DNA from: Methanomicrobiales archaeon HGW-Methanomicrobiales-1
GTDB lineage: Archaea; Halobacteriota; Methanomicrobia; Methanomicrobiales; Methanospirillaceae
Reading direction: 5' to 3'
NCBI GenBank assembly: GCA_002839675.1
Contig: PGYM01000002.1
Location: forward strand, 476,111 to 540,110
Length of the DNA stretch: 64,000 bases
The notes under the pieces are model-generated. The model worked only from the letters and a program-made list of their open reading frames with translations. It searched no databases and was not told the DNA's origin. The translations under genes were made by a program, and so were the position numbers. Below, piece by piece: positions 6,129 to 21,239 of the stretch (positions within the stretch are counted from its first letter, which is position 1; each line of letters opens with the position of its first letter).

Positions 6129-6141
6129 GTTCGTTGCCCCA

Positions 6142-6711
6142 TCAGAATTCTATCTTCGGGGGAGTCGCTATCGCTTCTTCGAACTGCAGGTACTCGAGTT
6201 TGATGAGTCCCATGAACTTTCCAACGAAATTGGAGGGTATCGTGTCTATCATCGTGTTGAATTCCTGCGAGATATTATTGAACGTGTACCGCTGGCGGCC
6301 AATCTCATCTTCGAGGCCTTTCACCGAGTCCATCATGCTCATGACGGTGCCGGAGGTCTTGAGATCGGGATAATTTTCCGCTACTGCAAGAAGGCGCCCG
6401 AAAATCGAACGGGATTCCGCTTCGACTTTGTTCAGATCACCGGGATTTGCTGTCGCAACACTCGCACGCATGGCAGTGACTTTTTCGAAGGTCTCTTTTT
6501 CAAATTTGGCATAGCTCTTCACGGATCCGAGAAGTTGCTCGATCATGTCCAGCCGCTTCTTCATGGCGACCCGGATCTGGCCGAGGGTTGCCTCAGATGA
6601 ATTTTTCAGCGTGACGAACCGGTTGTAAATACCAATTGCCCAGAGAATTAGTCCTATGATTACGAGGACGACAATTCCAAGGATAACCCATCCAATAAGA
6701 CTCTCAAACAT
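6142..6711 (-). CDS. lemA: LemA family protein
   Basis: Protein of 189 aa with one N-terminal membrane helix (about residues 6-27) followed by a long helical domain. Typical LemA blocks are visible: YNRFVTLKNSSEATLGQIRVAMKKR and a YPDLKTS segment preceding the conserved C-terminal helix (INRFP-like region; here NTMIDTIPSNFVGKFMG). Length is normal for the family. It is the first gene of a pair with the DUF2207 protein. LemA proteins are of unknown function. Confidence 0.9.
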   Translation of the reverse strand: MFESLIGWVILGIVVLVIIGLILWAIGIYNRFVTLKNSSEATLGQIRVAMKKRLDMIEQLLGSVKSYAKFEKETFEKVTAMRASVATANPGDLNKVEAESRSIFGRLLAVAENYPDLKTSGTVMSMMDSVKGLEDEIGRQRYTFNNISQEFNTMIDTIPSNFVGKFMGLIKLEYLQFEEAIATPPKIEF

Positions 6712-6807: not shown

Positions 6808-7779
6808 TTATTGGACGGTGAGCGAACCAACTACGCGAAGTTTGCCCCCTTCAAGGTAGTGCAGCACCACCTGTGCACCGGGAGGGTACACCAAGGCTTT
6901 TTCCATGGTTAGGGTAATGGTCGGCATTCTCCAGTCCCCATCCACGGTTATTTTTTCCAGCCGGGTCGGGAGGAACTGCATCCAGTAGCCGGCATACAGC
7001 ACCATGCCTTCCTTGAGCGGTGCCGGCCAGTATTTCACGATTTGTGCTTTCCCTGAAACGGTGGTGGAGAATTTTATTGCAGGATCATTGGTCAGGACGA
7101 ATCCCCGGTCAAGGTCTTCAGATTCGATATTTTTCAGGGCAAGGCCAACCCGTTCACCGGCAATCGCACTGTCGGAATCATCATCGTGCTTCTGGATGGA
7201 ACGGATCTGGGTGGTTTTTTCCGTGGGGAGGACTTTTAACGTGTCGTGCTTTTTTATGGACCCCTGCGCAACAAAGCCGAGCACAACTACGCCGACACCT
7301 TTCACATTGAAATGGGAGTCGACCGGTACAGATCCTTTTCCGGATCCTTCGTGTGTTTTGTGATGAGCGGACTGTTTTACGGATATCTCGAGCATCCTCT
7401 CACGAAGACCAACGATGTCTTCCTCAATGACCTCATAGTGCTCAAGAACTGTGCCTTTGATGAGTGGGGCGATCTGGTCCGGCGTGATATAATTCTTTAA
7501 AATGAGATATCCATTGGATTTGCCGGCACACTGGAGCATCAGCACACATTCACCAAAACTGGCATTGATTTCATCGACGACAAGGACTATCCGCTCCGAT
7601 ACCGATACGGTGTAAAACAGTGAGGATAGTTTCTCCGGGTACCGGGTCGGTTCGATGAAGGTAACGGTGGCGTCGCCTTTTTTCAGATTATAGAAGGTAA
7701 TATCGCTTACGGTACCCTTTTTTCCCAGATCCTTGGCATAATCGGGGGGAGCGAGGATTGCGACGGTGAGGTTGGACAT
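6808..7779 (-). CDS. EF-Tu/SelB-like protein lacking a recognisable GTPase P-loop
   Basis: A 323-aa protein. The middle and C-terminal parts resemble elongation factor beta-barrel domains 2 and 3 of the EF-Tu/SelB class: KGVGVVVLGFVAQGSIKKHDTLKVLP near 160-190, GERVGLALKNIESEDLDRGFVLT near 210-235, and a final domain with KYWPAPLKEGMVLYAGYW. The first ~110 residues occupy the place of the G domain, but no GHVDHGKT-type P-loop, DxxG or NKxD motif can be seen. The strand/helix pattern remains (VAILAPPDYAKDLGKKGT, IVLVVDEINA), so this looks like a degenerate GTPase fold. Many methanogens carry such a paralogue of archaeal SelB. Its role is unknown, and GTP hydrolysis seems unlikely. Confidence 0.7.
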   Translation of the reverse strand: MSNLTVAILAPPDYAKDLGKKGTVSDITFYNLKKGDATVTFIEPTRYPEKLSSLFYTVSVSERIVLVVDEINASFGECVLMLQCAGKSNGYLILKNYITPDQIAPLIKGTVLEHYEVIEEDIVGLRERMLEISVKQSAHHKTHEGSGKGSVPVDSHFNVKGVGVVVLGFVAQGSIKKHDTLKVLPTEKTTQIRSIQKHDDDSDSAIAGERVGLALKNIESEDLDRGFVLTNDPAIKFSTTVSGKAQIVKYWPAPLKEGMVLYAGYWMQFLPTRLEKITVDGDWRMPTITLTMEKALVYPPGAQVVLHYLEGGKLRVVGSLTVQ

Positions 7780-7926
7780 GATGACAACAACTTGGTTGTA
7801 GGAGGATATGAGAGTTTATCTCTTTGAAAAAAATTTGGAGATCGATTTCACTTATTACATTTCCATTGAGTTCAACCTAAAAATTTTAAAAATCAGGGTT
7901 TATTTTGATTTTTTCAGGCTACTTCA

Positions 7927-10224
7927 CTATTTTTCAGATTTCTTTCCTTTATTTGGTTTTTTACTGGCCACAGATTTGTTAATTCCTTTGAGATATGTCT
8001 CCAATTCCCGCCGTTTTATGATAAGCACAAAAATTACGATAATTCCAATCCCGGTTAATATCGCCCCAATCTTCACATCGAGTGGATCAAATTTGAACGT
8101 GACAGATGATGTTTCCGAAGAAAGCTGGGCCCCGACCATATTTCCTACATTGGATGCATCACGATTATTGACCTTCCATCCTGGGTAAAAAGCAGTTTTA
8201 AGTACGGCAACATCCCCTTGAAGGAATGGCCCGTATAAAACTACTTCGTCAGGAGTGAATTTTTCAATCTTGGATGGAATCAGTTGATCATTCCTGACTA
8301 CAAATGCATTGGGAAGAACGTTATCCGGTTTATATACGGAAATATTATTGACTTTGAAGGTAGCAGTGGGGAGGTTCTGGTTTCCATTCTCAAGATACGC
8401 AGTATCGATGATATAATCTGCTGTGAAATATTCAGTGTTACCAATTTTTAAGTTAAGCGGGGGCATATTTTTTGGCAGGTAGGTGTAATGCCCCACCATG
8501 GGATGCATATGATTTTTTATTAACCAGTACGTGAAATCCATATGCTGGAATGACCATCCGGCAGGATAAACCCATATTTGTGACGTCGTTTGAGGATATT
8601 CTTTTATTTTTTCAATTATTTTTAATGCCGGACTCTCATCTAAGTGAGGGTCATATATCTGTAAGACGCTGATGTTTGCTGTGATCGAGAGGAGAATTCC
8701 AATAATCAATAATCCTTCAAAGATATGTTTTTTCAGCCAGATTTTATTCACATAAAATCTGTTAACCAAGAGTAAAACAGCAACAAGGATGAGCGAGATA
8801 AGAAGACCTTTGATCAGTACCGATTCCGTAAAAACAGAAAAATTTTTAAAAATAATGACAACATCGACAAGGAATGATATCCAAAAAAATGCGGAGAGTG
8901 TGAATGCATCAGCTTTATTCAAATATATGAGCAGTAAAAACCCAAAAACCAGTACTATGCTTAAAGCTGCCTCTATTGAGGGTATAGAAATCCAAGGGAG
9001 TTCCAGCAATTTGAGGACTACAATGATGGCAACACCAAACGTAATTCTATTCTTTTGTTCACTGGATATCTCGAATGTATCATTATTTTTTAATTTTTGC
9101 TGGAGAATATACACGCCATATATAGAGAGCAATAATACAATCGGCATTATTGCCCCGAAGATCCTACCGGCGTTCCTGAAACCATTAATGACCGGGAACA
9201 AGTGAATGAACGAGAGAAGTGTTCTGCCGCCATCGGCCCAGACTAATGAGAAGAGAATCGCAAAAAAAGACGGCACCGTAATATCTTTTTTCCCCCAGAC
9301 AAGAGCAATGATGGCAAAAAGGATTGGTATGATACCTATAAGGGCCATGGTCTCGTAGGGGCCAAAAACCGTATCGATTGGTGTTCCAAAAATAAAGGAT
9401 GCCAAATTATTTTCCAGTAATCCGCCATCACCGAGTGGATTAATAATGTCAATTCTCTGGATATAAGGCATGATTGAAAGGTTCGGGATCAGCTTGATCG
9501 CACTAACTAAACCAAAGAGGATCCCTGCTACAGACAATGCAACAATCGTCTGCAGGTTAATTTTACGAGTGATTAGATAATACAGAAAATAAATTACCAA
9601 AATTGCATTTGTAAAAAAATTGAAATATCCCAATCCTGTAAAAACCAGAAGTGTTTCACAAAGAGCAAGACCGATGATATTGAAAATGGTATTTTCTGAC
9701 TTCCAGATAATTTTAAAGAAAAAATAATACAATAAAGGAATCCAAGCCAAGGCATACACAAACGAGATATGTCCTATAGATACACGTGATATGAGGACAC
9801 CGCAGAACATATATCCCAATGAATAGATCATCAGCAAATCGGAATTTTTTACAACAAGGGTCCCGAGTTTGTAAAACGCCAGGAAGGCGATATAGAGATT
9901 AATCAGGATAATCAGGTTAATTATAAAAATATCCTGAGAGATGTAGGTAAAAGGAAATGAGAAGGGATAAAACCGATCAGAATTAAAACTTGCAATTTCG
10001 GGTAAACCTGTATTCCAGTAATTATTCCATAATGAGAGTGGATTTTCCATCAAGAATAATTCCGGCATCATCAGCGACATCGCATCATGATACTCAGGAA
10101 TGAATACCTGATTCGATTGAAACGCTGCAGGAAAGACAATTAACAAGAAAAGAAGCGGGAGTAAAAGATATACTATGGTTTTTTTGGATTCATCACTGAC
10201 ATTAATTTTATCGATCAAAAACAT
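7927..10224 (-). CDS. YfhO-like polytopic membrane protein (GT-C type)
   Basis: A 765-aa protein with a dozen or more hydrophobic segments spread over residues 15-530. It then has a mostly soluble domain (about 540-715) with FYPGWKVNNRD near 683, and a last helix near 722-740 before a lysine-rich tail. FYPGWKV followed by VTFKFDPLDVKIGA is the ending seen in bacterial YfhO-like lipoteichoic-acid or glycan modifying membrane proteins. An acidic pair in the first external loop (EYHDAMS near 43) is where GT-C enzymes carry catalytic acid residues. The gene is distinctly AT-rich compared with the genes on its right end and begins the glycan island. A lipid-linked sugar transferase role is inferred; substrate unknown. 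Confidence 0.6.
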   Translation of the reverse strand: MFLIDKINVSDESKKTIVYLLLPLLFLLIVFPAAFQSNQVFIPEYHDAMSLMMPELFLMENPLSLWNNYWNTGLPEIASFNSDRFYPFSFPFTYISQDIFIINLIILINLYIAFLAFYKLGTLVVKNSDLLMIYSLGYMFCGVLISRVSIGHISFVYALAWIPLLYYFFFKIIWKSENTIFNIIGLALCETLLVFTGLGYFNFFTNAILVIYFLYYLITRKINLQTIVALSVAGILFGLVSAIKLIPNLSIMPYIQRIDIINPLGDGGLLENNLASFIFGTPIDTVFGPYETMALIGIIPILFAIIALVWGKKDITVPSFFAILFSLVWADGGRTLLSFIHLFPVINGFRNAGRIFGAIMPIVLLLSIYGVYILQQKLKNNDTFEISSEQKNRITFGVAIIVVLKLLELPWISIPSIEAALSIVLVFGFLLLIYLNKADAFTLSAFFWISFLVDVVIIFKNFSVFTESVLIKGLLISLILVAVLLLVNRFYVNKIWLKKHIFEGLLIIGILLSITANISVLQIYDPHLDESPALKIIEKIKEYPQTTSQIWVYPAGWSFQHMDFTYWLIKNHMHPMVGHYTYLPKNMPPLNLKIGNTEYFTADYIIDTAYLENGNQNLPTATFKVNNISVYKPDNVLPNAFVVRNDQLIPSKIEKFTPDEVVLYGPFLQGDVAVLKTAFYPGWKVNNRDASNVGNMVGAQLSSETSSVTFKFDPLDVKIGAILTGIGIIVIFVLIIKRRELETYLKGINKSVASKKPNKGKKSEK

Positions 10225-10336
10225 TTTGTATCAAGTATCAGTAGAGTCTTGATAATTTGAATTTTGCGATAAATACCTAGGAAATTGGGGTAAAAAAGAA
10301 TATTTTAAGAGATTCGAAATTCAACAATAACCAATA

Positions 10337-11395
10337 ATGTCTATAATAAAATATCTCATCACTGGGGGAGCCGGCTTCATCGGCAGCAATTTCATCCGGA
10401 ATTTGTTAAACCGCCATCAAGAAATTAAAATTCTGAATTTTGATAAGTTAACTTATGCCGGAAATCTCAATAATTTATCCGATCTCGAAAAGGATATAAG
10501 GTACTCTTTCGTCAAAGGAGATATTTGCGATATTAAAAAAACAGAGAATGTATTCAACCAATTCCACCCGGATTATGTAGTCAATTTCGCTGCAGAGTCC
10601 CATGTTGATAAAAGTATACATTATCCGGATGTTTTTGTAACATCAAACGTTTTGGGTGTCCAGAACTTATTACAGATTTCATTACAGCAAGGTGTGAAAA
10701 AATATCTCCAGATCTCCACTGATGAGGTATATGGATCGCTTGGAGCTGAAGGATTATTTACCGAGAAAACTTTACTCGATCCCAGCAGCCCATATTCTGC
10801 AAGTAAAGCCAGCGCCGATTTGCTGACACAGGCATATTTCCATACCTTCAACCTCCCGATCAACATCACCCGATGTTCCAACAATTATGGTCCGTATCAG
10901 TTCCCGGAGAAATTAATCCCCCTTACGATACTCAATTGCCTGAAAGGGAGAAAAATTCCGGTGTATGGAGATGGCCTCAATGTCCGGGACTGGATCCATG
11001 TTGATGATCATTGTTCTGCGATTGACCTTGTACTTCACAATGGAGTTGTTGGGGAAATCTACAATGTCGGTGCGAACAACGAGCGATCAAATATTGAGAT
11101 TGTGAAATTGATCATTCAAATACTTGCAGAATTACGCTCGGATTTGAAGATTTCAGAAGCACTTATTTCCTATGTTGAAGATCGTAAAGGTCATGATCGG
11201 CGTTATGCGATAGATTCAACAAAAATCCAGTCAACATTCTACTGGAAGCCAAAAATTGATTTTAACTATGGTCTAACCGAAACAATCAAGTGGTATTTGC
11301 ATCACCAAGAATGGTTAAATTCGGTTATAAATAATGATTATCTTACCTATTATGATAATAATTATGGGAAAAACAAATTTGTTCTGTTATCATGA
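10337..11395 (+). CDS. rfbB: dTDP-glucose 4,6-dehydratase (RmlB type)
   Basis: Short-chain dehydrogenase-family enzyme that turns dTDP-glucose into dTDP-4-keto-6-deoxyglucose. The Rossmann motif GGAGFIGSNFI is at about 10-20. The sequence FNFDKLTYAGNL-like block (here LNFDKLTYAGNL) is typical, followed by AESHVDKSI, the TDEVYGS catalytic region near 129, and the YSASKAS Tyr-Lys pair near 154. TRCSNNYGPYQFPEKLIP and DWIHVDDHC are further hallmarks. Length (352 aa) is normal. It opens a run of overlapping plus-strand genes and overlaps the next by ATGA. It is more AT-rich than flanking housekeeping genes. No RmlC or RmlD gene is present, so the keto-sugar most likely goes to the aminotransferase downstream. 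Confidence 0.93.
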   Translation: MSIIKYLITGGAGFIGSNFIRNLLNRHQEIKILNFDKLTYAGNLNNLSDLEKDIRYSFVKGDICDIKKTENVFNQFHPDYVVNFAAESHVDKSIHYPDVFVTSNVLGVQNLLQISLQQGVKKYLQISTDEVYGSLGAEGLFTEKTLLDPSSPYSASKASADLLTQAYFHTFNLPINITRCSNNYGPYQFPEKLIPLTILNCLKGRKIPVYGDGLNVRDWIHVDDHCSAIDLVLHNGVVGEIYNVGANNERSNIEIVKLIIQILAELRSDLKISEALISYVEDRKGHDRRYAIDSTKIQSTFYWKPKIDFNYGLTETIKWYLHHQEWLNSVINNDYLTYYDNNYGKNKFVLLS

Positions 11396-12123
11396 TTGCT
11401 TACCATGATGAAAAAAGGGATTGGCTTGATTCAATAAAATATTCTTTTAAGAAGTATCCGAATTTTTATAATTTTCTTATCTGGTTAATTTCTCCGGTAT
11501 TTAGTTATAAAAAAGATTCCTACAAGAGAATTGTAAAATATGTGACAAATGATAAAAACGCAATTATCTTAAACATAGGATCGGGCCCGTTTAAACTTGA
11601 AAAAAGTTTCATTAACCTGGATATTACTCCTTTTAGCAATGTTCATATCGTAGCTGATGCAACTCAATTACCATTTAAAAATAATTCTATTGATGCAATT
11701 GTCAACATTGTAATTCTGGAACATGTTCCGAAACCTGAAAAAGGAGTTGACGAAATGTATCGCGTGATGAAAAACAAGGGAGTAATTTATACACATATCC
11801 CATTTATGCAAGGATTTCATGCAAGTCCGCATGACTATAAACGATGGACGTCATCCGGTATCTCTCAATTACATCATAATTTTATCGAACTTGAATGTGG
11901 AGTTGGTGCAGGACCGACTTCGTCTTTGGTCTGGATTTTAACTGAATGGCTTGCTTTATTTCTCTCGTTCCGAATAATACCACTCTATAAAATATTGTTT
12001 GTTATGTTTACTCTCATTTTATGGCCAATAAAATTCATAGATCTAATTCTGATCGAACATCCCATGGCAAAAAATATTGCCAGTACTTTTTATTATATCG
12101 GACGCAAGGAGAAAGATACATGA
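11392..12123 (+). CDS. Class I SAM-dependent methyltransferase with C-terminal membrane segments
   Basis: Protein of 243 aa. The SAM-binding motif LNIGSGPFKLE is near residue 64, followed by NLDITP, DATQLPFKNNSIDAIVNIVILEHV (motifs II-III, near 90-115) and a post-motif YRVMKNKGVIYTHIPF. The last ~60 residues include two hydrophobic stretches (LVWILTEWLALFLSF and ILFVMFTLILWPIKFIDLIL), so it is probably membrane-anchored. It is very AT-rich. Start and end both overlap neighbours by ATGA, so it is translationally coupled in the sugar operon. The acceptor is unknown; a glycan or polyprenyl-linked sugar is the contextual guess. Confidence 0.8.
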   Translation: MIAYHDEKRDWLDSIKYSFKKYPNFYNFLIWLISPVFSYKKDSYKRIVKYVTNDKNAIILNIGSGPFKLEKSFINLDITPFSNVHIVADATQLPFKNNSIDAIVNIVILEHVPKPEKGVDEMYRVMKNKGVIYTHIPFMQGFHASPHDYKRWTSSGISQLHHNFIELECGVGAGPTSSLVWILTEWLALFLSFRIIPLYKILFVMFTLILWPIKFIDLILIEHPMAKNIASTFYYIGRKEKDT

Positions 12124-12863
12124 AAGGTGTAATACTCGCAGGAGGTACCGGCACCCGGTTATACCCCCTTACCAAAGTAACGAATAAACACCTGTTACCC
12201 GTGGGAAAAGAGCCGATGATCTTCAATCCTATCAGGCAATTGCTCTCTGCAGGGATTACCGATATCCTGGTTGTTACCGGAAAAGATCACATGGGGGAAA
12301 TTGTCCAGTTGCTTGGGAGTGGCTCTGATTTTGATTGCAATTTTACCTTCAGGGTGCAGGAGAAGGCAGGAGGGATTGCTGATGCCCTTGCACTTGCAAA
12401 AGTATTTGCAAACGGTGAAAGACTTGTCGTCATTCTTGGGGACAATATCCTCACCCATAGCATCCGGAAATACGTTGAGGCATTCAAAAAACAACCCGCT
12501 GGTGCGAAAGTGTTGCTTAAGCGCGTCGGGGATCCGGAACGGTTTGGTGTTGCGGCACTGGATGAACAGAATAAAATGATCATGCAGATCGAAGAAAAGC
12601 CGGAAAATCCAAAAAGCGATTATGCCGTAATCGGTGTGTATATGTATGATCCACTGGTGTTTGAGATAATCCAGAGTATCATACCCTCTGAACGTGGGGA
12701 ACTTGAGATCACTTCCGTCAACAACTGGTATGTGGAACATGCTGTGATGACCTATGATATTGTTAACGGTGACTGGACAGATGCCGGAACCTTTGAGTCG
12801 CTCATGCATGCAAACCAGATGCTCTTTTCCATCAATAATACCATCCAGAAAGGCGATGAATAA
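12120..12863 (+). CDS. rfbA: Glucose-1-phosphate thymidylyltransferase-like sugar nucleotidyltransferase (short RmlA)
   Basis: Predicted to join dTTP and glucose-1-phosphate to give dTDP-glucose, the substrate of the RmlB enzyme two genes upstream. The signature LAGGTGTRLYPLTKVTNKHL is at residues 5-24, with the VGKEPMIFNPI block, ILGDNI near 108, FGVAALDE near 142, EEKPENPKSDYAVIG near 157 and DWTDAGTFESL near 220. I chose the ATG at 12120, which overlaps the upstream stop as ATGA and starts exactly at the conserved N-terminus. A longer frame back to 12021 would add 33 residues lying inside the methyltransferase. At 247 aa it is the short form without the C-terminal helices of bacterial RmlA. 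Base composition is richer in GC than the genes on either side. Specificity for dTTP is inferred. Confidence 0.88.
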   Translation: MKGVILAGGTGTRLYPLTKVTNKHLLPVGKEPMIFNPIRQLLSAGITDILVVTGKDHMGEIVQLLGSGSDFDCNFTFRVQEKAGGIADALALAKVFANGERLVVILGDNILTHSIRKYVEAFKKQPAGAKVLLKRVGDPERFGVAALDEQNKMIMQIEEKPENPKSDYAVIGVYMYDPLVFEIIQSIIPSERGELEITSVNNWYVEHAVMTYDIVNGDWTDAGTFESLMHANQMLFSINNTIQKGDE

Positions 12864-14023
12864 TGCAGATCCCATTTAACCGCCCCTATCTTACTGGAGA
12901 TGAGATCCGGTATATGGATGATGTGCTTCACTCACTCATTGATGGGGGGCATATCAGCGGTGATGGGAAATATACCAAACTCGTGCAAAATTTCTTCCGG
13001 TCAAAATTTGGTGCACGAAAAGCGCTTATGACCACCTCATGCACAAGTGCGCTTGAACTGGCCACCCGGATTTTGGATCTCAAAGCCGGTGACGAAGTGA
13101 TTGTTCCTTCGTACACATTTTCCTCAACAGTCAATCCCATTTTACTCGCAGGTGCGAAACCGGTCTTTGCCGATATACTATCGGATACCCTGAATATTGA
13201 TCCCGCAGATATCCGTAAGAAAATTACCAAAAAAACCCGCGCCATCTATCCGGTTCATTATGGGGGTGTATCCTGTGCAATGGATGAAATTATGGAGATC
13301 GCACAGGATCACGATCTCAAAGTTGTGGAAGATGCAGCCCAAGGTGTGAATGCAAAATACAAGGGAAAATATCTCGGGACAATTGGGGATTTCGGGTGTT
13401 ATAGTTTCCACGAAACGAAGAACTATGTGTGCGGAGAGGGAGGATCTCTTCTCATCAATTCTGATGATCCAAAAATTATCGAGCGTGCAGAGATCATCCG
13501 GGAAAAAGGGACCAACCGGAGCAAGTTCCATCGCGGGGAAGTGGATAAATATACCTGGGTGGATATCGGTTCGAGCTATCTTCCAAGCGATCTGCTGTCT
13601 GCATTTCTCTATGCCCAACTGGAGAAAATGGACGAGATTCAGAATATGCGGATGAACGTATGGAATGCATATTATTCCGCGCTGAAACCGTTTGAGGATG
13701 CAGGAAAGATTCGTTTACCGATTGTTCCGGAGTATGCGAAACACAATGCTCACCTTTTCTATATTCTCTTTCACGATGAGCAGACTCGGGATAGGATCAT
13801 GAGCCAGCTGAAAAAAGCAGGGGTTCTGGCGGTATTCCATTATGTTCCGTTACATTCGTCGCCGGTTGGGCTGGGTCTGGGTTACCGAAAAGAGGATCTG
13901 CCGGTGACGGAAGAGATGAGTGGGAGGTTGCTGAGGCTGCCGATGTTTGCGGGGATGAGTGATGTGGAAACATCATTTTTAATAAGAAATATGAAAATTA
14001 CTTTGACTAATTCAAATATATGA
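12863..14023 (+). CDS. wecE: dTDP-4-amino-4,6-dideoxygalactose transaminase (WecE/RffA type)
   Basis: PLP-dependent aminotransferase of the DegT/DnrJ/EryC1/StrS family. It resembles bacterial WecE throughout: MQIPFNRPYLTGDE at the start, TTSCTSALELATRILDL near 58, GDEVIVPSYTFSSTVNP near 78, VVEDAAQGVNAKYKGK near 157, and SFHETKNY near 183, where the Lys is the PLP ligand. REKGTNRSKFHRGEVDKYTW near 214 and AVFHYVPLHSSP near 324 also match. It should aminate dTDP-4-keto-6-deoxyglucose at C4 to the galacto product. The start overlaps the upstream stop (TAATG). The last ~10 residues (TLTNSNI end) are AT-rich and differ in composition from the rest, suggesting the composition break to the next gene falls just inside this gene. 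Confidence 0.93.
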   Translation: MQIPFNRPYLTGDEIRYMDDVLHSLIDGGHISGDGKYTKLVQNFFRSKFGARKALMTTSCTSALELATRILDLKAGDEVIVPSYTFSSTVNPILLAGAKPVFADILSDTLNIDPADIRKKITKKTRAIYPVHYGGVSCAMDEIMEIAQDHDLKVVEDAAQGVNAKYKGKYLGTIGDFGCYSFHETKNYVCGEGGSLLINSDDPKIIERAEIIREKGTNRSKFHRGEVDKYTWVDIGSSYLPSDLLSAFLYAQLEKMDEIQNMRMNVWNAYYSALKPFEDAGKIRLPIVPEYAKHNAHLFYILFHDEQTRDRIMSQLKKAGVLAVFHYVPLHSSPVGLGLGYRKEDLPVTEEMSGRLLRLPMFAGMSDVETSFLIRNMKITLTNSNI

Positions 14024-14029
14024 GGGGAA

Positions 14030-14953
14030 ATGAATACTTTTTTGTGGTGCTTAAATACAGAAAAAGGATTAGATGTATTAAATTTTTTAATCAAGACAAA
14101 TATCAAGGATATTGGTGCCGTATGTTCATATCCTGAATGGAATGTTCAGAAAAATTTTGGTGATTTAATTGAGAAAAAATGCCACGAAAATGACATCCCA
14201 TATATATCTTGGAATGAACTCAAAAAAGATTTTAAAAAAAATATTAATAAATACCATATTTCAGGAATTGTAGCTATTGGTTGGCAATATCTGCTCCCAC
14301 TTGAATTGAATCGCAATTTACCTGATAAAATTATTGTTTTCCACGATTCCCTATTACCCAGATACAGAGGATTTTGCCCTACTGCAACTGCAATATTGAA
14401 AGGAGATGGGCAGATTGGAATATCTGTGCTGTATGCTTCTGAAGAAATTGATGCGGGTGATCTGATATTACAAAAGTCGGTTGAAATTAACGATTCTGTG
14501 TACATTGAAGAGGCAATAAAAATTATTTCAAAATTATATTGTGATTGTGCTGTAGAATTAATCTATCTAGTCCGGTCTAACAATATAAAAACAAAAAAAC
14601 AAGATGAAAGATTAGCCACATATTGTATATGGAGAAATCCTGAAGATAATGAGATAGATTGGAATTCCTCCGCACGAGATATTTTAAATTTAATCAGGGG
14701 AAGTGGATATCCGTATTTTGGTGCTTATACATCGTTACAAAATGATCTTATCAGAGTATGGGAAGCAACCGTACTGGATTATGATATTAATTTTGAGATT
14801 AGGGATACTGGTAAAATCTGGAAAATGGAAAATGGAAATCCAACAATAATTTGTAAAAATGGATTGTTAAAAATTTTAAGAGCTACTTATGAGGGGGGAG
14901 GGGATATATTTCCATTAAAAAAGTTTAGATTGCGATTTGGGAGATCAAGATGA
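14030..14953 (+). CDS. Sugar N-formyltransferase (Fmt/ArnA-N family)
   Basis: Protein of 307 aa with the formyltransferase core. The signature FHDSLLPRYRGFCPTATAI lies near residue 103, and the Asp-containing EIDAGDLILQ lies near 143. A C-terminal domain of the Fmt type (about 200-300) follows, with ATYCIWRNPEDNEIDW and IRGSGYPYFGAYT. In Fmt and ArnA the catalytic triad is Asn-x-His plus Asp. Here His and Asp are present, but the Asn position is Val (VFH). The gene sits 6 bases after the WecE gene and overlaps the next, so the 4-amino sugar nucleotide is the likely formyl acceptor, with N10-formyl-tetrahydrofolate or a methanogen formyl-pterin as donor. The donor question is open. The gene is strongly AT-rich. 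Confidence 0.82.
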   Translation: MNTFLWCLNTEKGLDVLNFLIKTNIKDIGAVCSYPEWNVQKNFGDLIEKKCHENDIPYISWNELKKDFKKNINKYHISGIVAIGWQYLLPLELNRNLPDKIIVFHDSLLPRYRGFCPTATAILKGDGQIGISVLYASEEIDAGDLILQKSVEINDSVYIEEAIKIISKLYCDCAVELIYLVRSNNIKTKKQDERLATYCIWRNPEDNEIDWNSSARDILNLIRGSGYPYFGAYTSLQNDLIRVWEATVLDYDINFEIRDTGKIWKMENGNPTIICKNGLLKILRATYEGGGDIFPLKKFRLRFGRSR

Positions 14954-15891
14954 AACCTGATTCAATTGAATATTCCATTGTAATACCAGTGTATAATGGG
15001 GAGAAGACCATTGAAGAATTAGTTGATAGAATTAAAACCGTCTTCGCATCACCCAATAGATCATTTGAGATTTTATTAGTTGACGATTCCAGTCATGATA
15101 ATAGTTGGAATATTCTGAAGAAATTGCGTGAAAAGGATAGCAATATTAAAATTATTCATTTAATTAGAAATTATGGGCAGCATAATGCTACAATTTGTGG
15201 TTTTCGTAATTCAAAAGGAAGATATGTTATAACCCTTGATGACGATCTGCAACATCCACCCGAAGAAATTCCAAAATTGATAGAGGGGATGAATCAACAC
15301 TATAATGTGATTTATGGAAAGTATAATCCAAATAATTCGACATTTTTTGAAAATGCACTAAGCACACTTTTTCAAAAATTGATGCACAAAATTTTTGAGA
15401 TTCCAAATAACATCTTTCTCTCCTCTTTTGCGATTTATCGGTGTGAAATCATTAAAAATATAATTTCAATCAGGAGTTCATATCCGTTTCTTTTTGGATT
15501 GATGATTAAATCAACGCCAACAAATAAAATCGGAAATGTTGAAGTTGATCATTTTAAAAGAGAGCGGGGCACTTCGAATTATGGTTTATTTAAATATTTT
15601 AAGTATTCACTCAATCTCATTATCAATTATTCTTCATGGCCGTTGATTTTCATTGCTTTGTTCGGATTTATTCTTAGTATATTGAGTATCTGTTTAGGGG
15701 CTTGGATTATAATTCAAAGACTAATAGATCCCTCCTATGGGGTGATGGGATGGAACTCCCTGATGGCAGCTATTTGCTTTTTAGGAGGTGCAATATTAAT
15801 GTCTATGGGGATTATCGGGGAATATTTACGGAGAATCCTTGCTGAAACATCCTATGGCCAGCAATACGTGATCGGGGAAATGGAAACATAA
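14950..15891 (+). CDS. ArnC/DPM-like polyprenyl-phosphate glycosyltransferase (GT2)
   Basis: GT2 enzyme of 313 aa. The N-terminal GT-A domain shows YSIVIPVYNGEKTIEEL near 8, ILLVDDSSHDNSW near 42, HNATICGFRNSKGRYVITLDDDLQHPPEE (DxD-type metal motif near 100), and HFKRERGTSNYG near 200. Two hydrophobic segments end the protein (about 225-255 and 270-295), the layout of ArnC/GtrB-type enzymes that load a sugar onto a polyprenyl phosphate at the membrane. The start overlaps the formyltransferase stop by ATGA, and the small ArnE-like gene follows after 1 base. The predicted substrate is dTDP-4-formamido-4,6-dideoxygalactose and dolichyl/polyprenyl phosphate; this is inferred from gene order. Confidence 0.85.
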   Translation: MKPDSIEYSIVIPVYNGEKTIEELVDRIKTVFASPNRSFEILLVDDSSHDNSWNILKKLREKDSNIKIIHLIRNYGQHNATICGFRNSKGRYVITLDDDLQHPPEEIPKLIEGMNQHYNVIYGKYNPNNSTFFENALSTLFQKLMHKIFEIPNNIFLSSFAIYRCEIIKNIISIRSSYPFLFGLMIKSTPTNKIGNVEVDHFKRERGTSNYGLFKYFKYSLNLIINYSSWPLIFIALFGFILSILSICLGAWIIIQRLIDPSYGVMGWNSLMAAICFLGGAILMSMGIIGEYLRRILAETSYGQQYVIGEMET

Positions 15892-15892
15892 T

Positions 15893-16255
15893 ATGCAATA
15901 CAGGTTCTCATTTGTTTTTATCCTGTTATCCGTTTTATTCCAGTCCCTTAGTGGAATTTTTGGAAAATACGCTGCATCAAATATCGAAGAAGTAACTATT
16001 TTTGCGATTATTACCAACTTTTTTTATCTCCTTGCACTGATTTGCCTGTTTTTTCAGGCACTCGTATGGCAACAAGCTCTCCATCGATATCCGTTGTCAT
16101 TTGCATATCCATTCATGAGCCTCATGAATTTTATCGTTCTCTTCGCTTCGGCACTTCTGTTTCATGAAGGGATCACCCCGTTCAATATTGCTGGTCTGAT
16201 ACTCATTTCCCTTGGGATTACCCTGTTGTCACGCCACAAAGGAGAGTGTGTATGA
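15893..16255 (+). CDS. ArnE/SMR-like small membrane protein, subunit 1
   Basis: A 120-aa protein with four hydrophobic helices (about 5-22, 30-52, 68-90, 95-113), the size and fold of EamA/SMR half-transporters such as ArnE. The sequences SLSGIFGKYAA at the first helix and YPLSFAYPFMSLMNFIVLFASALLFHE are typical of these (QxxxKxxxA-like and YxxxxP-like patterns). The downstream gene is a second member, overlapping by 4 bases, so the two are probably made together as a heterodimer. The role suggested by context is flipping the polyprenyl-phosphate-linked sugar made by the preceding GT2. Confidence 0.72.
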   Translation: MQYRFSFVFILLSVLFQSLSGIFGKYAASNIEEVTIFAIITNFFYLLALICLFFQALVWQQALHRYPLSFAYPFMSLMNFIVLFASALLFHEGITPFNIAGLILISLGITLLSRHKGECV

Positions 16256-16602
16256 TCGTTTCGTATGTTCTCCTGTTTCTGGCAATACTGCTTACTGGTG
16301 TCAGCCAAGTATTGATGAAAAAAGGATCCTCAAAAAAAGGGGAGGGTCGATTCCAGATTCTTTCAATGTATCTGAATACACCAACCATGACCGCGTACGG
16401 GCTTCTGCTAGTCACAACCGTACTCTCCGTAATTGTGTTGCGGGACATTCCCTTAAAAGTCTTCTATGCTGTTTCATCCCTAAACTTTCTGATAGTGACG
16501 GGGTTATCATACTGGCTGCTGAATGAGAGAGTTAATCGTGAAATGATCATTGCATTGGCATTGCTTGTTGGCGGGGTTCTGGTTTTTAATTATCCTGTTT
16601 AG
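16252..16602 (+). CDS. ArnF/SMR-like small membrane protein, subunit 2
   Basis: A 116-aa, four-helix membrane protein, homologous in layout to the preceding gene. It begins VSYVLLFLAILLTGVSQVLMKKGS, where the Q-x-x-x-K pattern matches the first helix of ArnF/EmrE-like proteins, and has LLNERVNREMIIALALLVGGVLVFNY at the end. I start it at the ATG at 16252, which overlaps the upstream TGA and follows an aaaggag Shine-Dalgarno sequence. A GTG at 16246 would add two residues only. Partner of the 120-aa protein in a predicted lipid-linked sugar flippase. Confidence 0.72.
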   Translation: MIVSYVLLFLAILLTGVSQVLMKKGSSKKGEGRFQILSMYLNTPTMTAYGLLLVTTVLSVIVLRDIPLKVFYAVSSLNFLIVTGLSYWLLNERVNREMIIALALLVGGVLVFNYPV

Positions 16603-16728
16603 GGCTGGTATGAAAAACACCAGATGACTTTGGATAACCTGTTCTGGATCGGTGTGTATCCGTTATTGACGGCCCTGATGATCGAATTTATCAATGATAC
16701 GTTTGGCCAATTTTTCCTAGATAAATAG
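16603..16728 (+). pseudogene. C-terminal remnant of an RfbH-type DegT sugar dehydratase
   Basis: Directly after the ArnF-like stop, one frame without an obvious start reads about 41 residues to a TAG at 16726. It includes NLFWIGVYP followed by LLTALMIEFINDTFGQFF. This matches my memory of the conserved end of RfbH-like CDP-4-keto-6-deoxyglucose-3-dehydratases (tFWIGvYPGlt...m.dy....f..f). Nothing upstream in frame supports the rest of the gene, so it is a decayed tail, probably left by recombination in this sugar locus. The identification rests on one short motif. Confidence 0.5.
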
Positions 16729-17060
16729 GAAACTCTCAATTTTTTAAAAATTGTCTGATTCTTCTAATGTGATGAGAGTATTAATGCCCTTTTTAAACAT
16801 GGAATAGAGAATGACAGGGAAATCTAATAACAAGGGTCAGATTTTTTTAGTTATGTCCGATGATTCCATAATCCGCAGTAAAAAATGTTATCTGTCATTT
16901 TAAGTGCAGAATTTCCGTCATAAAAAGACATAATTTTTAGATCCGCAAGATGTTGGTAATTCTTTACCTTCTCATGTTTGTTCTCGTAAAGTCAGAAAAT
17001 TATGAGTTATACGGTGAAGATTTGCAGTATTTAAATGAAAATAATTTTTCCACCGGCACC
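16729..17060. other. AT-rich spacer between convergent genes
   Basis: No supportable gene. It holds a palindrome of A/T character (CAATTTTT/AAAAATTG, about 16737-16753) that could act as a terminator for the plus-strand operon. A short open frame begins at 16950 but runs into the minus-strand glycosyltransferase and has no family features. Confidence 0.5.
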
Positions 17061-18179
17061 CTATCCAATTTCCTTTTTTCTTTGCCAGGTAATACGCCGG
17101 TTCGCCATAAAATTCCAGACAAAACCCAGAAGAATTCCCACAAGATTTGATAGCAGGTAATAGACGCCAAATACACTAGTTAGCAAAAATAAAACACCCA
17201 TGTTGATTACCAGTCCACCGGCGGATACTACATGAAAAGCGACTAAACGGTGCCAACGGCTGGATAACTCGTGTCCTGCTTTGGATTTAAACGTCCAAAG
17301 ATCATTCCAGATGAAATTATTGATGATGGATAATTCAATGGCGAAAAGACTGGCAATAAGATAATAAAAACCAACGAAATCCGTCAGGTACCAAAGTACC
17401 CCCATATTTACGACAATCCCGGAGATCCCAACCAGCCCGAATTTGAACACTCGTTTCCATTCCCTCCATGCCGCACTCTGGTGATGGGTGAATGAAAAGA
17501 GGGTGATATCGATAACCTGCTGCGCATACTCAACAATTGTTTTGATTTTTAGTTTGCTCGAACCAATTTCCCGATCCACGAATTCGAAGGGAATCTCCTT
17601 ATCTTTTTCCCAGGTTCCCTTACCAAGCACTTCTAACAGGATTTTGTAACCCCGGGGTTTTAAAGAAGCATTTGCGACAACACTTTTCTTAATAGCAAAA
17701 AAGCCGCTCACCGGGTCTGATACATCGGGAAAGAGCAGGCGCCCTAAAAACGTAGCTCCGAGCGAGATAACCCGGCGTTTAAGTGGCCATTTTTTTATTC
17801 CGCCACCATCCATATACCTGCTACCGATGACAACATCGTATCCTTCTTTGATCTCGTGATACATCGCAGGGATTAGAGCTGGGGGATGGGAAAGATCGGC
17901 ATCAATTACCACAAGAATATCCGACGATGCCTTATCGAACCCTTCTGCCACAGATTGTGAAAGTCCGTGATCCGCCAGACGGACGATACTGTTTACATTC
18001 GGTTTTGTTTTTTTGATTTCATTTGCAATGGTAATGGTTCCATCAGGAGAGTTATCATCGACAACAAGAATCTCCCCCTTGAGATTATTCCGCTTGAAAA
18101 CCGCGTCCACTTCAGTAATAATATTCCTGATGTTCGCCTCTTCTTTAAATGTGGGAATTATTACCGTAAGATCGTACAT
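17061..18179 (-). CDS. Dolichyl-phosphate mannose synthase-like GT2 fused to GtrA domain
   Basis: Two-domain protein of 372 aa. Residues 1-230 form a GT2 polyprenyl-phosphate hexosyltransferase: YDLTVIIPTFKEEANIRNI, ILVVDDNSPDGT near 38, VIDADLSHPPALIPAM near 92 (DxD), and SRYMDGGGIKKWPLKRR near 121. Residues about 240-365 form a four-helix GtrA-like domain (FKFGLVGISGIVVNMGVLWYL; NNFIWNDLWTFKSK near 290), which in other systems takes part in moving lipid-linked sugars. It should make dolichyl-phosphate mannose or glucose as donor for the GT39 enzyme, whose gene lies 20 bases upstream on the same strand. ManC in this window could supply the GDP-mannose. Confidence 0.88.
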   Translation of the reverse strand: MYDLTVIIPTFKEEANIRNIITEVDAVFKRNNLKGEILVVDDNSPDGTITIANEIKKTKPNVNSIVRLADHGLSQSVAEGFDKASSDILVVIDADLSHPPALIPAMYHEIKEGYDVVIGSRYMDGGGIKKWPLKRRVISLGATFLGRLLFPDVSDPVSGFFAIKKSVVANASLKPRGYKILLEVLGKGTWEKDKEIPFEFVDREIGSSKLKIKTIVEYAQQVIDITLFSFTHHQSAAWREWKRVFKFGLVGISGIVVNMGVLWYLTDFVGFYYLIASLFAIELSIINNFIWNDLWTFKSKAGHELSSRWHRLVAFHVVSAGGLVINMGVLFLLTSVFGVYYLLSNLVGILLGFVWNFMANRRITWQRKKEIG

Positions 18180-18199
18180 GGCTGCTCAAACAACGGATA

Positions 18200-19726
18200 C
18201 TACGCTGAAACAAAGAGATAAATTCCGGTATTCTGTCCGAGAGATTTTGTGTGTTCTTTTAACCATGCAATTGCATCACCATCAGGATTTGCTGCACTGA
18301 TATCTCCGGTAACAACGAAATAAGCGGTACTATTGCCTCTCCCGTTATTGATCCTTTCAAGATCTTTTCCGGTATCCGCACCAAATTCGAATGTCTTGTC
18401 CGAGGTATTCGAATAATAATAATTGAGTGGCTGGTAAATATAGCCCGGAACAACAATAACAAGATCACCGGACTGGGTTATTTTTTGCATCTGGCTGGAA
18501 AAGCCCCTCCAGTCATCCTTGGAATACCCCGAATAATAGGTTGCAAGAGTTGGGGCACTGATGATAATGAGGAGTGCCATAAACCCGTAGACTACCCCCC
18601 GGTTATTGATAAGCCGATAAAATATCCCGTACGAGGCTGCCACACCCAGGAAAAAGATCGTATTGAAAAAGATCAGGTAACGGGGCACCATGGGCATTTT
18701 GTACGACAGAATGAAGCTGATGACAAACGTAAGAACTGTGAGTGTCACTAAAAATATTCCTTTCTTTTTATCAATGAGAAATGCCTGGATGATACCGATT
18801 ATAAAGAGGATGAGAAGCAGGAACATCGGGATATCAGAAAAGCCCGAGAGCTCCCGGAAGGTCTCACTGATGATTCCGAGTCCTTGGATCCCGAAGGCTG
18901 GTGCAGAAGATGTCCGGGTAGCGAAGAGCTGGATTGCCAGCAGAATGAGGGGGAAACAGAGAACGACAAATACTACGATCGATAACGCGATCATTTTAAT
19001 ATTCTGGAGGTTTTTCCGGAAATTTTCAACCTGAAGGAAAAGTGCATAGAGTATAAGGGAAGCAATAATAACAAACGCATAGAAGTGGGACCAGAACGCA
19101 AGTGCCGATAGTATGCCAAAAAGTGCCCAGTTTTTCAGGTCATTTGTTTTGAGGGCTTTGAAATAGAAGACTAGGGCGAATGCCACGAAAAAGAGCATCA
19201 TCGAATATGCCCGGGCTTCCTGAGAATAGTAGATCAGGAATGGTGAGAATGCAAATGCTGCTGCAGCAATGATCCCGACGTTACGATCCATGAATTCTTT
19301 TCCTGCAAAATAAATCAGGGGAATAGTCAGTACCCCAAGGAGTGCAGGAATAAACCTGAGCGTAAATTCGTTGTTGCCAAATACCAGCATGAGATGTTCA
19401 AGCCAGTAAAAAAGAGGTGGATTGAACTCTCCCCCTGCTGTAGCTTTCCAGATATCGGGAATTGACATTATTGCAAACGTATTCGTAGAGGCTTCATCGA
19501 GCCAGAGTGAGTTGAGACCAAGATTATAGAAACGGAGCAGAAGGCCAAAAATGGTCAAAATGATGAGAGATTGTGCGTACCGGCTGTGGGTAACAAGAGA
19601 TACAACATTTTTGGTATTGAGATCTCGAAACGATTGGATTGGGGATATGTAATCCCCATCAAGATTACATTCGGTTACTACTCCCGATTTTTTTTCTTTT
19701 CCCCGATCCTCGCGTTTTTTTGCCAT
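18200..19726 (-). CDS. GT39-family (PMT/ArnT-like) membrane glycosyltransferase
   Basis: Polytopic protein of 508 aa, with about ten hydrophobic segments between residues 48 and 400 and a C-terminal extracytoplasmic domain. The first external loop has LGLNSLWLDEASTNTFA near 68, where the Asp-Glu pair is the GT-C catalytic motif. GGEFNPPLFYWLEHL near 97 and YYSQEARAYSMMLFFVAFAL near 167 are characteristic of the GT39/ArnT type. It should move a sugar from a dolichyl or polyprenyl phosphate to a surface protein or lipid. It forms a two-gene unit with the DPM-GtrA protein and faces the aminosugar operon tail to tail, so it is also a candidate end enzyme for that sugar. Confidence 0.82.
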   Translation of the reverse strand: MAKKREDRGKEKKSGVVTECNLDGDYISPIQSFRDLNTKNVVSLVTHSRYAQSLIILTIFGLLLRFYNLGLNSLWLDEASTNTFAIMSIPDIWKATAGGEFNPPLFYWLEHLMLVFGNNEFTLRFIPALLGVLTIPLIYFAGKEFMDRNVGIIAAAAFAFSPFLIYYSQEARAYSMMLFFVAFALVFYFKALKTNDLKNWALFGILSALAFWSHFYAFVIIASLILYALFLQVENFRKNLQNIKMIALSIVVFVVLCFPLILLAIQLFATRTSSAPAFGIQGLGIISETFRELSGFSDIPMFLLLILFIIGIIQAFLIDKKKGIFLVTLTVLTFVISFILSYKMPMVPRYLIFFNTIFFLGVAASYGIFYRLINNRGVVYGFMALLIIISAPTLATYYSGYSKDDWRGFSSQMQKITQSGDLVIVVPGYIYQPLNYYYSNTSDKTFEFGADTGKDLERINNGRGNSTAYFVVTGDISAANPDGDAIAWLKEHTKSLGQNTGIYLFVSA

Positions 19727-19856
19727 TTATATCATCTACTATTTCGTAAATATTCAGATATAGAATGTTGCATCCCGGTCCTATTCGGAGAACATTCCAA
19801 ACAAAGAAAATTTTGGGATAACAGCAACGGTAGAGTGATCTGGTGTCTAAAAAAAT

Positions 19857-20735
19857 TCAGATATCTCTTTGACCTATAAGCGGGGACCTGACTGATTCCA
19901 GCAACTCGATGGTACTGGAAACAACTGTTGATGATTCTTCAAGCATCAGGTTTACCTGCTCGTGCGTACCGACCCTGCGGAAATCCGTGCGAACCGCAAT
20001 CACTGGTTTATTGTGGGCAAATGCATATCCCATCTCCCATGCGGTGCCGGAATCTGCATCGGCTCCATCGATGACAGCAACAATGATATCGGCATGTTCG
20101 AGATCTTCTTTGTTTTTTAAGAAGATCCGTTCCTGCTCTGTTTTTTTCCTTGTGTCAGAATCATCACCTGCCTCCTGAGGGAGGAAAACTTCGAACAAGT
20201 GTTGCCTGAGCAGGCCCGCCAATGATACATTATAGGTTCGCTCAGCTTCTGAGAAGAGAGGGGCAGCGAGATAGATCCGGTATGTTGCAAAGGTTGCAAC
20301 ATCGATAGCACGGATAGCAGGAAACCGGGAAAGAAACACTCCCCGCCCTGTTCGCTTTGGAGGTTGCTTATCCTCACTCCCATAATAGGTGCTGGTCACT
20401 CCGCAGGTTGGGGAGGAGTTGACCCCAAGGATACAAAGAGGTGGACCCCGTTCATCGATGATTGCCTGAACTTTTAGAGCAAGATCGTCCACAAGGCGGG
20501 TAAATGCCGGGGTGTCCAGACGTTCAAGAAATGTCCCGGGTTTCCTGTCAGGACCAAGGTACAATGTCTCCGGGCAGGGCAGCGGCACCATTTCAATACC
20601 AAAACGTTTACATCGTGCGATAGTACGCTCGAACAATTCAATATCTGATAGTTTCGTTATGCCTTCTGTCCGGAGCGAGGGATTGAGTACGCAGGGGCTG
20701 CAGAGCACGTACATTATTACAGTGTGTGCACGCAT
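19857..20735 (-). CDS. TudS-like desulfidase domain fused to nucleoside 2-deoxyribosyltransferase domain
   Basis: Two-domain cytoplasmic protein (292 aa). Residues 1-145 resemble TudS/DUF523-like thiouracil desulfidases: the N-terminal CSPCVLNPSLRTEG, a central LPCPETLYLG, and VNSSPTCGV near 115 supply Cys residues placed as in the three-Cys 4Fe-4S site. Residues about 155-285 match nucleoside 2-deoxyribosyltransferases: YLAAPLFSEAER near 160, ADIIVAVIDGADADSGTAWEMGYAF near 225, and NKPVIAVRTD. The fusion points to salvage or cleaning of modified nucleobases. An internal start at Met8 (20714), just before the first Cys block, is equally possible; neither start has a clear Shine-Dalgarno. It is divergent from tsr3, only 9 bases away. 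Confidence 0.78.
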   Translation of the reverse strand: MRAHTVIMYVLCSPCVLNPSLRTEGITKLSDIELFERTIARCKRFGIEMVPLPCPETLYLGPDRKPGTFLERLDTPAFTRLVDDLALKVQAIIDERGPPLCILGVNSSPTCGVTSTYYGSEDKQPPKRTGRGVFLSRFPAIRAIDVATFATYRIYLAAPLFSEAERTYNVSLAGLLRQHLFEVFLPQEAGDDSDTRKKTEQERIFLKNKEDLEHADIIVAVIDGADADSGTAWEMGYAFAHNKPVIAVRTDFRRVGTHEQVNLMLEESSTVVSSTIELLESVRSPLIGQRDI

Positions 20736-20744
20736 GGATGATCA

Positions 20745-21239
20745 ATGATACCCCTGTACGCCTACCGGGATAATAGCTGTGACCCCCGGAAGTGCACGGT
20801 TAAAAAACTTGAAAAGGCGGGTTTTTTAAAAATATTTACCAAACTATCCCTTATCCCACGAAATACCCTCCTGCTCGATCCCACAGCTGAACAGGCACTC
20901 TCTCCCGCAGACCGGTTCGTAAGATCCATCACCGTACTCGACTGCTCCTGGGTAGTACTGGATACCGGAAAAGTCTGTTCATGGCGCATTCGCAGGGCAC
21001 TCCCATTCCTGGTAGCGGCAAATCCGGTCAACTTCGGCAAACCCTGCGTACTCTCCTCGATTGAGGCGCTCGCGGCAGCACTCTATATTCTGGGCGAACA
21101 GGATCGGGCTGCTGCTGTTCTCTCAAAGGTCAACTGGGGGATCCGTTTCCTGGAAGTGAACCAAGAACCACTTGATCTCTATGCGAAAGCAAAGAACAGC
21201 ACAGAAATTATTGAAATCCAGTCACTCTACATAGACTAA
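20745..21239 (+). CDS. tsr3: Tsr3-type rRNA aminocarboxypropyltransferase (DUF367)
   Basis: A 164-aa protein matching archaeal Tsr3, a SAM-dependent SPOUT-like enzyme that adds an aminocarboxypropyl group to a hypermodified uridine of small-subunit rRNA. Visible family blocks: DPRKCTVKKLEKAGF near 13, LLLDPTAEQALSPAD near 42, VLDCSWVVL near 63, RALPFLVAANPVNFGKP near 83, and LSSIEALAAALYILGE near 102. The length is typical of archaeal members. The start ATG overlaps nothing and lies 9 bases from the divergent fusion gene, so the two must share a very compact promoter region. Confidence 0.9.
   Translation: MIPLYAYRDNSCDPRKCTVKKLEKAGFLKIFTKLSLIPRNTLLLDPTAEQALSPADRFVRSITVLDCSWVVLDTGKVCSWRIRRALPFLVAANPVNFGKPCVLSSIEALAAALYILGEQDRAAAVLSKVNWGIRFLEVNQEPLDLYAKAKNSTEIIEIQSLYID

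Follow-up and report, generated by a model that had tools for sequence, protein, structure and literature searches.

A predicted modular cassette for a lipid-linked N-formylated aminosugar in a Methanomicrobiales archaeon

A 64,000-nucleotide stretch of contig PGYM01000002.1 from the archaeon HGW-Methanomicrobiales-1 (the window) carries on its forward strand, at 10337-16602, an eight-gene operon that encodes RmlB, a methyltransferase, RmlA, WecE, a formyltransferase (FT), an ArnC-like family 2 glycosyltransferase (GT2) and two membrane proteins of SMR size, SMR1 and SMR2. We think it probable that the product of this operon is an N-formylated aminosugar, carried on a lipid and meant for the cell surface, and that the genes form a modular multi-component transmembrane glycosylation cassette. 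In related methanogens the GT2 and SMR genes are inherited together, and the gene upstream of them is exchanged for other modifying enzymes.

In the proposed pathway RmlA and RmlB would supply dTDP-4-keto-6-deoxyglucose, which WecE would aminate to dTDP-4-amino-4,6-dideoxygalactose (dTDP-Fuc4N). FT would then cap the 4-amino group, with 10-formyl-tetrahydrofolate (10-formyl-THF) as formyl donor, and the ArnC-like GT2 would load the formylated sugar onto a lipid carrier, either polyprenyl phosphate or dolichyl phosphate. SMR1 and SMR2 would together flip the lipid-linked sugar across the membrane, and a GT-C transferase, for which the product of 7927-10224 is the best candidate, would add it to a surface glycan, with the formyl group retained for lack of an ArnD-type enzyme. 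The other methanogens keep the GT2-SMR1-SMR2 core constant and would exchange the capping enzyme (formyl, methyl or acetyl-type), which would make the whole a modular multi-component transmembrane glycosylation system. All of this chemistry, transferase and flippase activities included, is predicted from the genes, and we infer from the same source the exact substrates, the lipid, the direction of flipping, the final acceptor, the retention of the formyl group and the action of the exchanged enzymes on an amine.

Gene content of the operon

A sequence-only reading of the same DNA had named ten genes, eight in the operon and two beyond it, and all ten were found in place and in the families named (Table 1). 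With ATG starts for RmlA (12120) and SMR2 (16252, for which a GTG at 16246 is a possible alternative), the gaps at the successive junctions of the operon are -4, -4, -1, +6, -4, +1 and -4 bp. RmlB passes the TIGR01181 cut-off (365.1), and RmlA, at 236 bits, falls below that of TIGR01208. WecE exceeds both of its curated cut-offs, with 563.9 bits to NF008687 (375) and 511.1 to TIGR02379 (435), and scores 421.5 bits against the WecE structure 6blg, which supports the earlier proposal of dTDP-4-amino-4,6-dideoxygalactose as the aminosugar. The methyltransferase has relatives in the cassettes of other methanogens (61% in genome G097 and 60% in G031). The GC content of the FT and GT2 genes (31.7% and 33%) is far from that of RmlA-WecE (46%) and of the window (49.8%), so that the operon looks mosaic; nothing in the repeats around it points to a mobile element.

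Table 1. Coordinates of the operon, its divergent neighbour and the downstream gene pair
Feature	Coordinates	Strand	Basis
Multi-spanning protein, 765 aa, fold predicted as GT-C; leading candidate for the ArnT position	7927..10224	-	fold match
RmlB, dTDP-glucose 4,6-dehydratase	10337..11395	+	TIGR01181, 465.7 bits; 401.7 bits to 6bi4
SAM-dependent methyltransferase	11392..12123	+	PF08241
RmlA, glucose-1-phosphate thymidylyltransferase, short form	12120..12863	+	314.6 bits to RmlA 3hl3
WecE, dTDP-4-amino-4,6-dideoxygalactose transaminase	12863..14023	+	NF008687, TIGR02379, 6blg
FT, predicted sugar N-formyltransferase, HDSLLP family, 307 aa	14030..14953	+	PF00551 and PF02911
ArnC/DPM-type GT2, predicted polyprenyl-phosphate sugar transferase	14950..15891	+	ArnC 9hwj, 148 bits
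SMR1, EamA/SMR-type subunit of predicted flippase	15893..16255	+	EamA PF00892; ArnE best NCBIfam
SMR2, second subunit of predicted flippase	16252..16602	+	ArnE best NCBIfam; weak SMR PF00893
Dolichol-phosphate mannose synthase with GtrA domain (DPM-GtrA), P. furiosus-type	17061..18179	-	5mlz, 294 bits
PMT_2/GT39-like GT-C protein	18200..19726	-	PF13231

The formyltransferase

FT contains both the Formyl_trans_N and the Formyl_trans_C domain. Its AlphaFold2 model (pLDDT 93.4) matches Fmt 3tqq with a TM-score of 0.86 and the formyltransferase domain of ArnA with TM-scores of 0.80-0.81, and the predicted structure has the full two-domain fold of Fmt and ArnA with the catalytic His and Asp. The family carries the signature HDSLLPxYRGF, and H105 and D141 are invariant in all 23 aligned sequences. 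The genome encodes a FolD-type enzyme, which makes a supply of 10-formyl-THF plausible. Archaea are not known to formylate initiator Met-tRNA, and apart from FT the genome encodes just one PF00551 protein, of PurN size (212 aa), so FT is unlikely to be Fmt; that assignment was dropped in view of the archaeal host, the WecE neighbours and a score under the Fmt cut-off.

Close relatives of FT are rare, being present in 2 of 393 genomes of the phylum, namely the source genome (G000) and G049. In the FT tree the protein groups with that of G049 and then with those of Paenibacillus, apart from a clade of Chloroflexota, Planctomycetota and Akkermansia sequences. WecE stands beside an FT-family gene in G049, in two Paenibacillus and in many bacterial loci, and tblastn of FT against phage and plasmid sequences returned only Fmt/ArnA-level matches. 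One published haloarchaeal plasmid is reported to encode a predicted sugar N-formyltransferase (PMC11431627).

A scan of 84,980 species genomes for the HDSLLP pattern yielded 28 loci. Several Chloroflexota, a planctomycete, an Akkermansia and a gammaproteobacterium have WecE, FT and an ArnC-like GT2 as neighbours. These bacterial loci hold the same three enzymes adjacent or near to each other; they differ from the archaeal operon in their separate FT and GT2 clades and in having no SMR pair within the 8-kb stretches. Long branches leave part of the GT2 tree unsure. Descent of the archaeal FT and GT2 from the sampled bacterial loci was rejected since the trees separate them, and the separate clades suggest that WecE, FT and an ArnC-like GT2 became functionally paired on more than one occasion. 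Proteins of ~600 aa beside some of the bacterial loci had no family match, and one such neighbour (locus L052) proved to be RNase J.

A constant core and an exchangeable capping slot

The nearest solved relative of the GT2 is ArnC, and of the 232 genomes from the order, 10 carry a GT2 orthologue. SMR1 and SMR2 follow the GT2 in nine of these ten, G097 having an extra 223-aa ORF between GT2 and SMR1, and G047 is the only one without the pair. The GT2 and SMR genes are thus co-inherited and not unrelated, as the earlier reading needed them to be, and in the survey of gene order across related genomes the GT2-SMR1-SMR2 block recurs more often than by chance. The position that corresponds to Glu14 of EmrE is Gln in 9/9 SMR1 orthologues and Thr in 8/8 SMR2 orthologues. 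Absence of the Glu fits lipid-type SMRs, which often lack the central Glu (PMC9574504).

The gene 5' of the GT2 changes from genome to genome. It is FT in G000, a methyltransferase in G097 and G031 (58% alike) and a hexapeptide acyltransferase in G066; GNATs whose best NCBIfam match is WecD, below its cut-off, stand directly 5' in G079 and with one ORF between in G086 and G111. G468 has WbqC-like and NeuD-type proteins there, the former recognised by eye from its likeness to a protein so named, and G075 has no sugar gene directly 5' of its GT2. WecE is encoded in the same 12-20 kb stretch as the GT2 in G000, G097, G031, G066, G079, G086 and G047. The stretch from G031 holds RmlB, a 7927-type GT-C gene, SMR2, SMR1, GT2, a methyltransferase, WecE, RmlA, a second methyltransferase, DPM-GtrA and a GT39-like gene.

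As judged from gene content and predicted structure, on which the enzyme families, the operon, the GT2/SMR co-inheritance, the exchange of upstream genes and the GT-C fold described below all rest, formylation is one predicted variant of a swappable amine-capping slot in a methanogen cassette with a replaceable cap. The slot and the unrecognised GT-C gene are new beyond the sequence-only reading, and slot swapping suggests an easily changed surface coat. A wider proposal, which we regard as possible and would not yet call probable, is that Methanomicrobiales share a modular surface-glycan cassette composed of a constant GT2-SMR1-SMR2 block, WecE and an exchangeable cap (formyl, N-methyl or N-acetyl), in which a one-gene swap would change one surface sugar, for example under virus pressure, and that this Arn-like route was put together from separately derived parts and is used by bacteria too.

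In G344 (L132:7680-9538, reverse strand) genes for a hexapeptide acyltransferase and an ATP-grasp ligase come after a WecE-GT2 pair, and the same sugar possibly receives an aminoacyl cap there.

A candidate terminal transferase

The divergent gene beside the operon, at 7927-10224, had not been listed before. Its product has no sequence match in Pfam, NCBIfam or the PDB. The confident PDB fold matches of its AlphaFold2 model (pLDDT 76.7) are all GT-C proteins, with ArnT 5ezm at the top (E 9.7e-4) and OST, AftD, EmbB, the archaeal OST 3waj and ArnT 5f15 among them; the predicted structure is that of a GT-C protein, with modest TM-scores. Asp47 is invariant in 10/10 sequences. Besides its place next to the operon in G000, a gene of this type adjoins SMR2 in G031 and WecE in G066. 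It is the best candidate and likely the final transferase, in the position of ArnT.

In G097, a 733-aa protein without a family lies directly after SMR2 (L130:12085-14286, forward strand); it is only marginally similar to the 7927-10224 family (E 0.14) and is perhaps another GT-C protein at the same place.

Fate of the formyl group and alternative readings

The genome as a whole, at 97.7% completeness, has no match to either the ArnD-type deformylase family PF01522 or the PIG-L family PF02585, with control genomes positive for both, which bears out the earlier statement that no ArnD-like deformylase is visible. With no deacetylase of either type the formyl group probably stays, and its retention on the final glycan is the simplest reading. 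A true Arn-type pathway, in which the formyl group is temporary and some other kind of deformylase takes it off once the sugar has been loaded, to leave a cationic aminosugar on a surface lipid or glycan, would match the step order seen here, and ArnC is known to act on a formylated sugar. Against it stand the lack of PF01522 and PF02585 and the methyl- and acetyl-type enzymes in the slot of related cassettes, which look like permanent decoration and not like transient protection, and we consider such a pathway improbable.

Several observations weigh against the formylated-sugar cassette as a whole. Val103 of FT aligns with the catalytic Asn of the Fmt NxH motif, an Asn that the formyl-THF dehydrogenase hydrolase domain, aligned along with Fmt, lacks as well, and no Asn stands at this position anywhere in the separate 23-sequence family alignment. 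This is the chief chemical caveat, and transferase activity is something that we infer. The best NCBIfam model for the GT2 is the ArnC equivalog NF007986, which it fails (177.5 bits, cut-off 529), and SMR1 and SMR2 match ArnE/ArnF best, yet at 33-40 bits with cut-offs of 92-99. WecE shares a stretch with the GT2 in only seven of the ten genomes, ~8 kb from it in three, G111 has a GNAT with no WecE within its stretch, and the slot methyltransferases could be O-methyltransferases. The TM-scores of the GT-C matches to 7927-10224 are low (0.32-0.45), and members of its family turn up in the absence of the cassette as well. An FT-like protein that is a hydrolase or acts on some other substrate, leaving the sugar unformylated, would account for the Val in place of the catalytic Asn and for a fold that is also similar to 2cfi (TM 0.76), the 10-formyl-THF dehydrogenase hydrolase domain. 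We judge this highly improbable in view of the His and Asp that are invariant in the family, the WecE genes that neighbour FT in many of the motif-recovered loci, and the sister cassettes that fill the same slot with other amine- or sugar-modifying enzymes.

The formylated dTDP-Fuc4N might instead enter ordinary glycan assembly by cytoplasmic WecF/GT4-type transferases, the GT2-SMR genes being mere neighbours that handle another sugar. WecE in G049 adjoins a GT56 protein of the WecF family (PF07429, the Fuc4NAc transferase family), next to a group of RmlA, RmlB and FT genes, and the Paenibacillus relatives sit amid rmlC and GT4-like genes; no ArnC-like GT2 or SMR gene was seen near the G049 and Paenibacillus loci, the two Paenibacillus stretches (L055 and L070) being only 8 kb long. 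In G075, G468 and G111, moreover, the stretch has GT2-SMR1-SMR2 and no WecE. What makes this reading unlikely is the 4-bp overlap of the FT and GT2 genes within one operon, the presence of WecE with a capping-type gene directly 5' of the GT2 in four methanogens (G000, G097, G031 and G066), and the WecE-FT-GT2 adjacency that is repeated across several bacterial phyla. The preferred account is still that of a formylated sugar loaded by the GT2 and flipped by the SMR pair.

The surrounding variable locus

The sequence-only reading had counted the DPM-GtrA and GT39/ArnT-like genes, ~460 bp past the operon on the opposite strand, as part of the set; the same locus in same-genus genomes without FT speaks against this. 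The GT39-like gene is present in 8/8 of the other same-genus genomes listed, none of which has a close FT, and was dropped as a dedicated ArnT because it is genus-wide even without the cassette. It occurs together with the DPM-GtrA gene in seven same-genus stretches (L094-L099 and L101) and one from another genus (L100), the pair generally lying between an EF-Tu-domain gene (6808-7779) and a Tsr3-like gene (20745-21239), around changing cargo. Given the same place and company across the genus, the pair forms an unchanging frame around a glycosylation locus whose content varies.

At the locus that corresponds to 6808-20735 of the window, same-genus genomes hold the flanks and differ in the sugar and methyltransferase genes between them, and L098 carries homologues of both SMR genes there. 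The gene at 19857-20735 (reverse strand), conserved next to the locus in the genus, encodes a weak DUF523/2-thiouracil-desulfurase-like domain fused to a nucleoside 2-deoxyribosyltransferase domain. Elsewhere in the window, 4302-6711 (reverse strand) encodes a membrane protein of the DUF2207 kind whose tail is rich in Gly, its neighbour being LemA-like by eye, and 42151-43002 and 47101-47913 (both reverse strand) encode related-looking proteins without a Pfam match that by eye resemble CARF/Csa3-type regulators.

Comparison with known systems

If the proposed pathway is correct, methanogens gain a defined route, modular in its genes, by which an unusual formylated sugar comes to the cell surface, and archaea an SMR-type candidate for the flipping of lipid-linked sugars. 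It would predict a dideoxy-formamidohexose in the source organism and an N-methyl counterpart in G031, and 7927-10224 adds a predicted GT-C family unseen by sequence libraries. An S-layer glycoprotein is present in Methanoplanus limicola (PMC4149034). We found no description of an archaeal set of this kind in the open-licence literature. The novelty in methanogens claimed by the sequence-only reading is narrowed, as far as function goes, by the bacterial loci with WecE, FT and an ArnC-like GT2 and by the methanogen cassettes with other capping enzymes.

The Arn (Pmr) pathway for L-Ara4N in Gammaproteobacteria has the same logical order of aminotransferase, formyltransferase, ArnC-like GT2, two SMR-size flippase subunits and GT-C transferase as is predicted here. 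The methanogen set differs in using a dTDP-6-deoxyhexose and not a UDP-pentose, WecE and not ArnB, and a free-standing FT of another family, with no ArnD and no lipid A. WecE passes the WecE models and fails the ArnB model NF008658 (218 bits, cut-off 631); FT fails the ArnA model NF005998 (103 bits, cut-off 777) and has no fused dehydrogenase. No protein of the operon reaches an Arn equivalog cut-off. The lipid-loading proteins all being below these cut-offs, Arn-like denotes a functional analogy: by its predicted steps the set works like Arn and is no member of it. Of the parallel Arn route that had been proposed, the pathway logic thus stands, with its order of amination, N-formylation, ArnC-like loading and SMR-pair flipping; structure and family searches upheld WecE and the FT fold and not the Arn equivalogs, and the terminal transferase is reassigned. 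FT itself shares its fold, and presumably its cofactor, with WlaRD, QdtF, FdtF, WbkC and the N-domain of ArnA, and is set apart from the characterised sugar N-formyltransferases by its HDSLLP signature, the missing catalytic Asn and the lack of a close solved relative.

The dTDP-Fuc4NAc branch of the ECA pathway (RmlA/RmlB-WecE-WecD-WecF) uses the same WecE-made nucleotide sugar, and its later steps have counterparts in the WecD-like GNATs in the slot of sister cassettes and the WecF-family protein beside WecE in G049. It differs in that the cap is acetyl there and predicted to be formyl here, where the sugar would be placed on a polyprenyl monophosphate by the ArnC-like GT2. With the CsbB-GtcA-YfhO and GtlA-GtcA-GtlB systems (PMC8035078) the cassette would have in common a GT2 that forms a lipid-phosphate sugar, a small flippase and a GT-C protein, which decorate a surface polymer; it is distinguished by an SMR pair in place of a GtrA flippase, its own nucleotide-sugar genes, an archaeal host and a GT-C protein without a sequence family. 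As in those multi-component systems, a predicted GT-A lipid-phosphate-sugar synthase, flippase and GT-C protein are encoded together, as seen in gene content and its recurrence among methanogens.

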